A stretch of DNA of 33,186 nt from Patescibacteria group bacterium (GTDB lineage Bacteria > Patescibacteriota > Patescibacteriia > Patescibacteriales > WJLG01), in NCBI GenBank assembly GCA_028707065.1, contig JAQTUZ010000001.1, positions 65,551 to 98,736 on the forward strand, read 5' to 3'. Shown piece by piece: positions 14,289-31,659 of this stretch. Made by a program: the position numbers and the translations under genes. The notes under the pieces were generated by a model, which was not told the DNA's origin, did no database searches, and worked only from the letters and a program-made list of their open reading frames with translations. Positions within the stretch are counted from its first letter, which is position 1, and each line of letters begins with the position of its first letter.

Positions 14289-14336
14289 CGATTTTTAGCT
14301 TCATAAATCGCCAATCGAATTGGGGTAATTAGCTCA

Positions 14337-14419
14337 TCCGCCAGTTGGCGGAGGTTATCCGCGACGTCGCCGTAGGCGCGCGCGGACCCGCTCACAGCCC
14401 AAAGGGCTGATGTAGCGGG
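14337..14419. repeat. Palindromes inserted in a tRNA D-loop
   Basis: Between the D-stem strands of the outer tRNA lie a 16-nt palindrome TCCGCCAGTTGGCGGA (14337-14352), five bases GGTTA, then a double hairpin: TCCGCG...CGCGGA (14358-14386) and CCCGCT...AGCGGG (14387-14419). The double hairpin is a diverged copy of the elements at 24480-24539 and 24605-24665 in the tRNA-Cys tail array. Confidence 0.8.
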
Positions 14420-14476
14420 GAGCGCCCGGTTTATTCACCCCGCCCCATTTGCCTAATTATCATAATCTAAAAAAGA

Positions 14477-14550
14477 GGATCTATAGCTCAGTTGGTTAGA
14501 GCGCCTCGTTTACACCGAGGAGGTCGTAGGTTCGAATCCTACTGGGTCCA
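14477..14550 (+). tRNA. tRNA-Val(TAC)
   Basis: 74 nt. Acceptor GGATCTA/TGGGTCC (with G-T pairs), D arm GCTC...GAGC, anticodon arm CCTCG-TTTACAC-CGAGG giving anticodon TAC, T arm GTAGG-TTCGAAT-CCTAC, discriminator A; CCA not encoded. It lies wholly inside the anticodon-arm interruption of another tRNA. Confidence 0.93.
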
Positions 14551-14640
14551 CGAAAAAAAACAAATGGGGCGGGGCAAGTCCGGAAGGTCGTAGGTTCAAG
14601 TCCTACATTACCCACCGAAATAATTTTTTGAAATTTTTTA

Positions 14641-24336: not shown

Positions 24337-24720
24337 CGTTTCTTTTGGCAGGTGGTGGTGCCTCTGCCATTTTTTTGTGAGTTCCCGCCCAGAGGGCGGT
24401 CCGCCTTTGGCGGAGATTCTCACCCAGACCTCGTTTCTTTTGGCAGGTGGTGGCGCCTCTGCCATTTTTTTGTGAGTTCTCCGCGACGTCGCCGTAGGCG
24501 CGCGCGGATCCGCTCACGGCCAGAGGCCGATGTAGCGGAGATTCTCACCCAGACCTCGTTTCTTTTGGCAGGTGGTGGCGCCTCTGCCATTTTTTTGTGA
24601 GTTCTCCGCGACGTCGCCTGATGGCGCGCGCGGATCCGCTCACGGCCAGAGGCCGATGTAGCGGAGATTCTGCCGACCTGAAGTCGGCATCCCGAGCTTG
24701 CCTCGGGATCACTCAGACCT
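24337..24720 (+). repeat. tRNA-Cys tail array with palindromes in the T-loop
   Basis: After tRNA-Cys comes a terminator-like hairpin (GGCAG...CTGCC plus seven T), then a repeated unit: 5' T-stem GTGAGTTC, a palindromic insert, then GATTCTCACCCAGACCTC and the same terminator. Inserts lie exactly between TTC and GATT of the T-loop: 24385-24414 (15+15-nt double hairpin), 24480-24539 (29+31) and 24605-24665 (30+31). In the last tail copy a fourth double hairpin (24671-24708) splits the 3' T-stem between GATTC and TCAC. No open frame across this region is credible. Each hairpin-plus-T-run copy could terminate the tRNA transcript. Confidence 0.88.
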
Positions 24721-31464: not shown

Positions 31465-31659
31465 GGGCCAGTAGCTCAGTTGGTACCCCGTCATTCGACG
31501 GGGCAGGGAGCGCCGTCCCGCACCTTTTTTTGGGGATATAGCTCAGTGGTAGAGCATCGCGTTTGCAACGCGAGGGTCAGGAGTTCGAGTCTCCTTATCT
31601 CCACAAAAAGGTGCGGGACAACGCGGAGGCAAGGAGTTCTAACCCCCTCTGGTCCACCA
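31465..31659 (+). other. Interrupted tRNA gene enclosing tRNA-Ala
   Basis: The ends make a tRNA: acceptor GGGCCAG (31465-31471) pairs with CTGGTCC (31649-31655), discriminator A and an encoded CCA (31657-31659). T arm AGGAG-TTCTAAC-CCCCT (one mismatch); D-stem strands GCTC (31474-31477) and GAGC (31508-31511). The D-loop after AGTTGGTA carries a CCCCGTC/GACGGGG hairpin (31486-31503). The anticodon arm is opened by a 15-bp perfect inverted repeat, 31515-31529 with 31605-31619, and an intact tRNA-Ala lies between the arms. Outside it remain CC (31513-31514) and GG (31625-31626), with AACGC unpaired on the 3' side. The outer anticodon cannot be read. Confidence 0.6.
31532..31603 (+). tRNA. tRNA-Ala(TGC)
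   Basis: 72 nt. Acceptor GGGGATA/TATCTCC with the G3-U70 wobble pair that marks tRNA-Ala, D arm GCTC...GAGC, anticodon arm TCGCG-TTTGCAA-CGCGA (anticodon TGC), T arm AGGAG-TTCGAGT-CTCCT, discriminator A; CCA not encoded. It begins right after a run of seven T and is nested in another tRNA-like sequence. Confidence 0.95.

Follow-up and report, generated by a model that had tools for sequence, protein, structure and literature searches.

Intact tRNA genes nested inside broken genes of the same isoacceptor in a Patescibacteria genome and its relatives

The window analysed here is a stretch of 33,186 nt (G000:C1:65551-98736) from a patescibacterial draft genome, G000, of 1.51 Mb in 42 contigs and 95% complete. 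Its sister species, G001, is the only other genome of the genus with which we compared it. At two places in the window an intact tRNA gene lies between the separated halves of another: a tRNA-Ala(TGC) at locus A (31465-31659) and a tRNA-Val(TAC) at locus B (14323-14616, Table 1). An earlier, sequence-only reading had described locus A as a tRNA inside a tRNA. This is confirmed by the ARAGORN and Rfam calls of the inner gene, by the perfect 15-bp repeat that frames it and by the outer acceptor stem, in which GGGCCAG (31465-31471) pairs with CTGGTCC (31649-31655), G3-U70 included. The second locus that had been reported with the same layout is equally real and follows the plan of locus A, but with a 14-bp repeat and bigger hairpins in the outer D-loop; its inverted-repeat sequence is unlike that of locus A. 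The anticodon arm of outer tRNA A was said to be opened by the repeat. The repeat is indeed perfect, but the arm is not simply split, its 5' strand being lost after CCG. Between the outer halves and the inner tRNA, neither locus contains an ORF, and neither has a nuclease gene.

Table 1. Features of loci A and B in window coordinates, and exact copies of the double-hairpin element in G000 in contig coordinates
Feature	Position	Strand	Basis or remark
Locus A, outer tRNA 5' part (acceptor GGGCCAG 31465-31471, D-stem 5' strand, D-loop up to GGTA)	31465..31485	+	Nearest Ala(TGC) genes, 90.5% over 21 nt
Locus A, GC palindrome in outer D-loop	31486..31503	.	7-bp stem, loop of 4
Locus A, outer D-stem 3' strand and anticodon-stem stump (GCC); remaining 5' anticodon strand absent	31504..31514	+	Direct reading
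Locus A, left arm of perfect 15-bp inverted repeat, GTCCCGCACCTTTTT	31515..31529	.	Same end sequence in dispersed element
Locus A, inner intact tRNA-Ala(TGC)	31532..31604	+	ARAGORN; Rfam tRNA, 74.1 bits; sole Ala(TGC) gene found in G000
Locus A, right arm of 15-bp inverted repeat	31605..31619	.	Inverted-repeat scan
Locus A, 3' part of the outer tRNA, beginning at C36 (position 36); includes T-arm (one A-C mismatch), 3' acceptor strand and encoded CCA	31619..31659	+	Reading and comparison with other tRNAs
Locus B, 5' part of the outer tRNA: acceptor sequence GGGTAAT and 5' strand of the D-stem	14323..14336	+	Reading and comparison with other tRNAs
Locus B, hairpins filling outer D-loop, the last a relative of the tRNA-associated double-hairpin element	14337..14419	.	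Hairpin search
Locus B, 3' strand of the outer D-stem, then anticodon arm as far as position 35 (GAGCGCCCGGTTTA)	14420..14433	+	Identical to uninterrupted G001 Val(TAC) up to position 35
Locus B, left arm of perfect 14-bp inverted repeat	14438..14451	.	Inverted-repeat scan
Locus B, inner intact tRNA-Val(TAC)	14477..14551	+	ARAGORN, Rfam; sole Val(TAC) gene found in G000
Locus B, right arm of 14-bp inverted repeat	14561..14574	.	Inverted-repeat scan
Locus B, 3' part of the outer tRNA, beginning at position 36 (T-arm and acceptor sequence ATTACCC)	14575..14616	+	Best matches Val(TAC) and Val(CAC), 90%
Double-hairpin element, exact G000 copies	C1:109388, C1:114002, C2:47813, C5:7287, C11:19251		Beside tRNA genes

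Folded as one RNA of 195 nt, locus A forms the outer acceptor, the long stem and the inner cloverleaf together (z = -5.7 against shuffles), a score to which the inner tRNA and the inverted repeat contribute much. Perfect inverted repeats of at least 13 bp with spacers of 20-160 nt number nine in the window against five in 20 Markov shuffles taken together, so long inverted repeats are common in this stretch; two of the nine frame a tRNA within tRNA halves. The earlier argument against chance is upheld by the inverted repeats, the pairing acceptor stems, an ortholog of locus B and the recurrence of such nests elsewhere. In an Rfam search at E <= 5, neither outer tRNA was recognised as a tRNA, and promoter and terminator scans gave numbers near those of shuffles. 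Three kinds of known RNA feature were also considered for the insertions. A group I intron was rejected because Rfam gives no group I match at either locus, and another known RNA because the matches besides the inner tRNAs were all below threshold. An archaeal-type bulge-helix-bulge intron is not indicated either, the fold of locus A being, as judged by eye, a continuous long stem.

Of the 49 tRNAs of G000, Ala TGC, GGC and CGC and Val TAC, GAC and CAC are each represented by a single gene, although gaps in this draft might hide another Ala(TGC) or Val(TAC). The sequence-only reading had counted against itself any coverage of the outer identities by ordinary tRNA genes; such coverage exists solely through the inner tRNAs, no other gene for Ala(TGC) or Val(TAC) having been found. 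It had also taken the encoded CCA of outer tRNA A as a hint of a foreign or older gene, on the ground that the inner and other tRNAs lack it. The statement about the other tRNAs and the use of CCA as a foreign mark both fail, since 6 of the 49 tRNAs of G000 encode CCA. When the outer parts were compared against 179 distinct tRNA sequences from the loci examined, three Ala(TGC) genes came closest to the 5' end of outer A (90.5%), and for the 3' half of this tRNA the best hit was again an Ala(TGC) (80.6%, E 2e-6). In outer B, the middle part agrees with the G001 Val(TAC) over 12 bases, and Val(TAC) and Val(CAC) are the best matches of the 3' half. Judged by these closest matches, inner and outer tRNA share one isoacceptor.

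The neighbours of locus B are alike in G000 and G001, with tRNA-Leu(GAG) before a gene that appears from its sequence to be methyltransferase-like. At the orthologous place in G001, one tRNA-Val(TAC) without any interruption comes after this gene, and its anticodon arm is that of the outer B halves; the outer tRNA is therefore the old resident, which bears out the earlier suggestion that it is the older of the two. Inner B, by comparison, is 95% identical over 59 nt to its nearest sequence, the Val(TAC) of G036, a genome from a different family; with the Val(TAC) of G001 the identity is 81% over 57 nt. Inner A shares 86% identity with Ala(TGC) of other families versus 73% with that of the sister species, so it is the inner tRNA, not the outer, that looks like the newcomer. 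The protein encoded next to locus A has no match in G001, hence no uninterrupted ortholog of this locus is shown. When locus A in full was used as a DNA query against 60 relatives, the matches outside G000 were all either tRNA-sized or short and stray. The loci bear the signature of a restored tRNA accompanied by a displaced fragment of the same tRNA, and replacement of the resident by the inner tRNA is well supported.

Whether the outer tRNA still works deserves separate consideration, for the insert could in principle be removed from the RNA and the halves joined, one transcript then giving two tRNAs. The outer acceptor stems of both loci still pair, the long stem formed by the repeat would keep the two halves close to each other, and 23S rRNA and RNase P RNA genes, whose RNAs are presumably used, contain the same repeat ends (see below); but bases are missing from the 5' side of the anticodon arm of outer A, its T-stem has a mismatch, both outer tRNAs retain their D-loop hairpins, Rfam finds no group I intron or other known ribozyme at A or B, and the same isoacceptor is already supplied by the inner tRNA. 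We consider a functional outer tRNA highly improbable. The outer tRNA would instead be the dead remainder of a former resident, Ala-TGC at locus A and Val-TAC at locus B.

The sequence-only reading spoke of two cases. Both are real, but the number is an understatement: a larger series exists, and several of its members carry a GIY-YIG nuclease gene. Full or near-full nesting with the same isoacceptor inside is also found at Ile(TAT) of G000 and at Thr(TGT), Pro(CGG) and Glu(CTC) of G001, and the outer Ile of the G000 nest is the counterpart of the intact G001 Ile(TAT) gene. The flanks of 96 intact tRNAs of G000 and G001, scanned over distances of up to 800 and 600 bp and in some cases cut by contig ends, contain many tRNA remnants, 5' pieces upstream and 3' pieces downstream. 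They often have GC palindromes at fixed joints, in the D-loop after GGT(T)A and in the T-loop after GTTC, and many of them have no adjoining nuclease. Remnants that end at the D-loop or T-loop outnumber those that end in the anticodon loop. Within a hand-picked set of the latter, the 5' copies end at position 35 in six of seven cases and at 34 in one, while the 3' copies start at 36 in three of five; the other two start at 35 or 36, where one matching base may be chance.

Remnants of this kind could also arise by tandem duplication, with replication errors at hairpins duplicating tRNAs and the spare copies decaying and collecting repeats and nuclease ORFs as passengers, no step being driven by a nuclease. 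Several observations are what such a process would leave: around Met, Cys, Glu and Arg(GCG) tRNAs there are flanks in duplicate and incomplete tandem copies, inverted tRNA-end copies adjoin terminators, and GC palindromes occur outside tRNAs too. It does not predict a fixed 35|36 break across several isoacceptors, nor that nuclease ORFs always share the strand of the tRNA and stand between its broken and its intact copy, nor that the inner tRNA differs from the resident that it replaced, and we regard it as rather unlikely.

Several other copies were seen near tRNA genes. In the window, a second copy of the T-arm and 3' end of tRNA-Cys, with two GC hairpins in its T-loop, lies 3' of that gene (24338-24450); the downstream flank of the tRNA is repeated after this second T-arm, and one more copy follows. 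Inverted copies of tRNA 3' ends occur past terminator-like hairpins 3' of Arg, Gly and Lys tRNAs (L020, L035, L036, L015), as though copying had doubled back at the hairpin. In both genomes tRNA-Arg(GCG) has a partial second copy with a D-loop palindrome (L020, L092), and within each genome this copy is 98-100% identical to the intact one, which suggests gene conversion.

At Glu(CTC) of G001, both outer halves, the inner tRNA and a GIY-YIG ORF (Pfam) are found at one locus, in the order 5' half to position 35, palindrome, ORF, intact tRNA, palindrome and 3' half from position 36; the stop codon of the ORF falls within the intact tRNA. At Ser(GGA) of G000, a 5' half and a hairpin precede a GIY-YIG ORF and then the intact tRNA. 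HNH ORFs lie immediately 5' of Leu(TAA) in G000 and of His(GTG) in G001. Nine GIY-YIG matches occur in G000. One of them, in a long frame, is probably UvrC, and five of the other eight lie immediately 5' of an intact tRNA; another of these eight (L212) sits between tRNA-Gln 5' halves at a contig end.

We surveyed 65 distinct GIY-YIG domains at 65 loci, comprising all 17 of G000 and G001 and 48 from elsewhere in the order that were drawn from the best-scoring rows and are not a random sample. An intact tRNA lies within 250 bp of 23 of the 65, on the same strand in all 23 and on the opposite strand in none; the remaining 42 have no tRNA within this distance. A partial copy of that same tRNA is present beyond the ORF in 14 of these 23 (ten genomes, eight families), and it is the expected half in 13 of these, L260 being the exception. 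One unrelated gene family likewise adjoins tRNAs in some genomes. A GIY-YIG ORF was also seen within the span of a 16S rRNA gene, on the opposite strand (L198, G001:C10:52237-52440).

In the loci read besides A and B, the ORFs identified between broken and intact tRNA were GIY-YIG or HNH only, with no integrase among them, and the DNA between the two copies was short, under about 550 bp. These features bear on the possibility that we are looking at the remains of tyrosine-integrase islands, in which an element that had entered at the anticodon loop and rebuilt the tRNA was afterwards reduced to the spacer now seen. In the available part of the Islander account (PMC4383910), islands do split a tRNA gene, restore a working copy and leave a displaced fragment, and anticodon-centred sites are common, so that the combination seen here is standard for them. 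The islands described there are large and carry a tyrosine integrase, however, whereas ours have short spacers with GIY-YIG or HNH ORFs or none. They mostly leave 3' fragments (3760 vs 159), whereas the broken copies here are often upstream 5' pieces, and integration does not predict both halves kept around a whole tRNA between inverted repeats, as at A and B. An origin from shrunken islands seems to us improbable.

Isoacceptors that are nested or directly follow a nuclease ORF have a median identity of 82% between G000 and G001 (n = 12) versus 96% for the rest (n = 31; one-sided p 0.009), with groups that were defined after the loci had been seen. Nested genes alone give p 0.02, and nuclease-linked genes alone p 0.07, which is not significant. 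Exceptions are Pro(CGG), Thr(GGT) and Glu(TTC), at 96%, 97% and 100% identity.

The end of the locus A repeat, AAAAGGTGCGGGAY, is dispersed, with 33 copies in 6 of 111 genomes of the order against 9 copies in 7 genomes for the reversed control. It comes as inverted pairs, which the control does not, and both ends are exact at 15 of the 21 places listed. Pairs or ends of this element lie between genes and around the inner Thr(TGT) of G001. A miniature inverted-repeat element (MITE) would have such terminal repeats at many sites, with short target duplications; by eye, A/T-rich duplications of 3-4 bp accompany the present element at some places, and there is none at locus A. A copy in G008 (L151) surrounds a frame-broken GIY-YIG gene, and G036 has a shortened copy at what is apparently the same place (L158). 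Through this shared repeat end, locus A is tied, indirectly, to an element able to carry a GIY-YIG nuclease.

Three genomes have the element inside 23S rRNA genes as well (L136, L139, L141), and by eye its site in G001 is roughly that in G005; in G001 it is also present within the gene for RNase P RNA (L162). A separate double-hairpin element (ACCCGCTCRCGGCC..GGCCGAYGTAGCGG) adjoins tRNA genes at all five of its exact copies in G000. In a Falkowbacteria MAG (L104, L105), one copy lies in the anticodon region of a tRNA-Gly piece. A search of genome contigs for the pattern returned this one Falkowbacteria MAG only, and viral contigs gave no match.

As the best explanation, we think it probable, with some reserve, that insertions carrying a nuclease gene disrupt a tRNA gene and leave a functional copy of it behind, and that A and B are members of this class without a nuclease. 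The resident tRNA would be split in the anticodon loop between positions 35 and 36 by an inserted piece that carried, or soon gained, an intact tRNA of the same isoacceptor, which would now do the work. A homing-type endonuclease would cut the tRNA gene, the element would be copied into the cut, and the working copy within or beside it would keep the cell alive; at A and B the nuclease gene would be absent or lost. Only insertions that bring or keep a working tRNA would survive, which would explain why inner and outer isoacceptor agree. The two loci would then belong to a larger class in the order, with small GIY-YIG (sometimes HNH) genes between the broken and the intact copy of one tRNA.

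This explanation draws on the architecture, the shared isoacceptor, the break point, the uninterrupted ortholog of B and the linkage of GIY-YIG genes to pairs of broken and intact tRNAs; homing driven by the nuclease, cutting included, is what we infer from them. Several observations weigh against it. First, A and B have no nuclease gene, their repeats differ and no uninterrupted ortholog of A is shown. Second, many remnants lack a nuclease, and 42 of the 65 GIY-YIG domains lack a nearby tRNA. Lastly, the nuclease-linked divergence stands at p 0.07, with Pro(CGG), Thr(GGT) and Glu(TTC) nearly identical between the species.

A bolder form of this explanation, which we offer tentatively as possible but not probable, is a natural cleave-and-rescue. 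Tiny GIY-YIG elements would attack essential tRNA genes at the 35|36 joint irrespective of the anticodon; they would perhaps recognise the hairpin and not the sequence, and would bring a cut-resistant tRNA of the same isoacceptor. The tRNA genes of the order would have been repeatedly replaced in this way, with nested dead tRNAs left behind. The synthetic Cleave-and-Rescue elements (PMC7951863), in the part of the source at hand, similarly break an essential gene and supply a substitute, but they are engineered, whereas here both the cutting and the resistance of the substitute are putative.

Other known systems share some of these features, as far as the available portions of their accounts go. 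In fungal mitochondrial mORFs (PMC3630166), an endonuclease ORF in an essential gene is likewise coupled to foreign replacement of the displaced gene part; those are mitochondrial protein genes with a replaced C-terminus, whereas here bacterial tRNA genes receive a complete tRNA or half of one. SegB of T-even phages (PMC13096335) is a free-standing GIY-YIG homing endonuclease adjoining tRNA genes, and it has been implicated in breaks in tRNA sequences and in the copying of tRNA plus nuclease, but it belongs to phage, and the portion consulted describes no split tRNA or nested replacement. Group I introns in the anticodon loops of bacterial tRNAs (PMC3984707) are also anticodon-region insertions, sometimes with a homing endonuclease; unlike the present insertions, for which Rfam found no such intron at loci A and B, they are self-splicing, whereas here the inner tRNA replaces the outer, which is not repaired. 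Fragments of tRNA left by integrated elements are reported, in the section available, to confuse annotation (PMC9897764). Insertions that restore their target are known, and the arrangement described here would be a variant of them. Our literature search, with subscription papers and preprints mostly outside its coverage, found no account of one tRNA lying within another or of split tRNAs linked to a nuclease in these bacteria.

Genes for tRNAs are usually counted among the most stable parts of a genome. In these very small genomes, essential single-copy tRNA genes seem to have been broken and replaced in place, more than once, and the old gene stays as a legible fossil that surrounds the new one or lies next to it. 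Similar splits at other tRNA genes, several with a small nuclease gene, suggest selfish elements that break a tRNA and supply a substitute. The fossils would be clean test substrates, because each names both its target and the joint at which it was opened. If this account is true, it would explain odd tRNA fragments that confuse annotation, and it would provide a natural parallel to engineered cleave-and-rescue.
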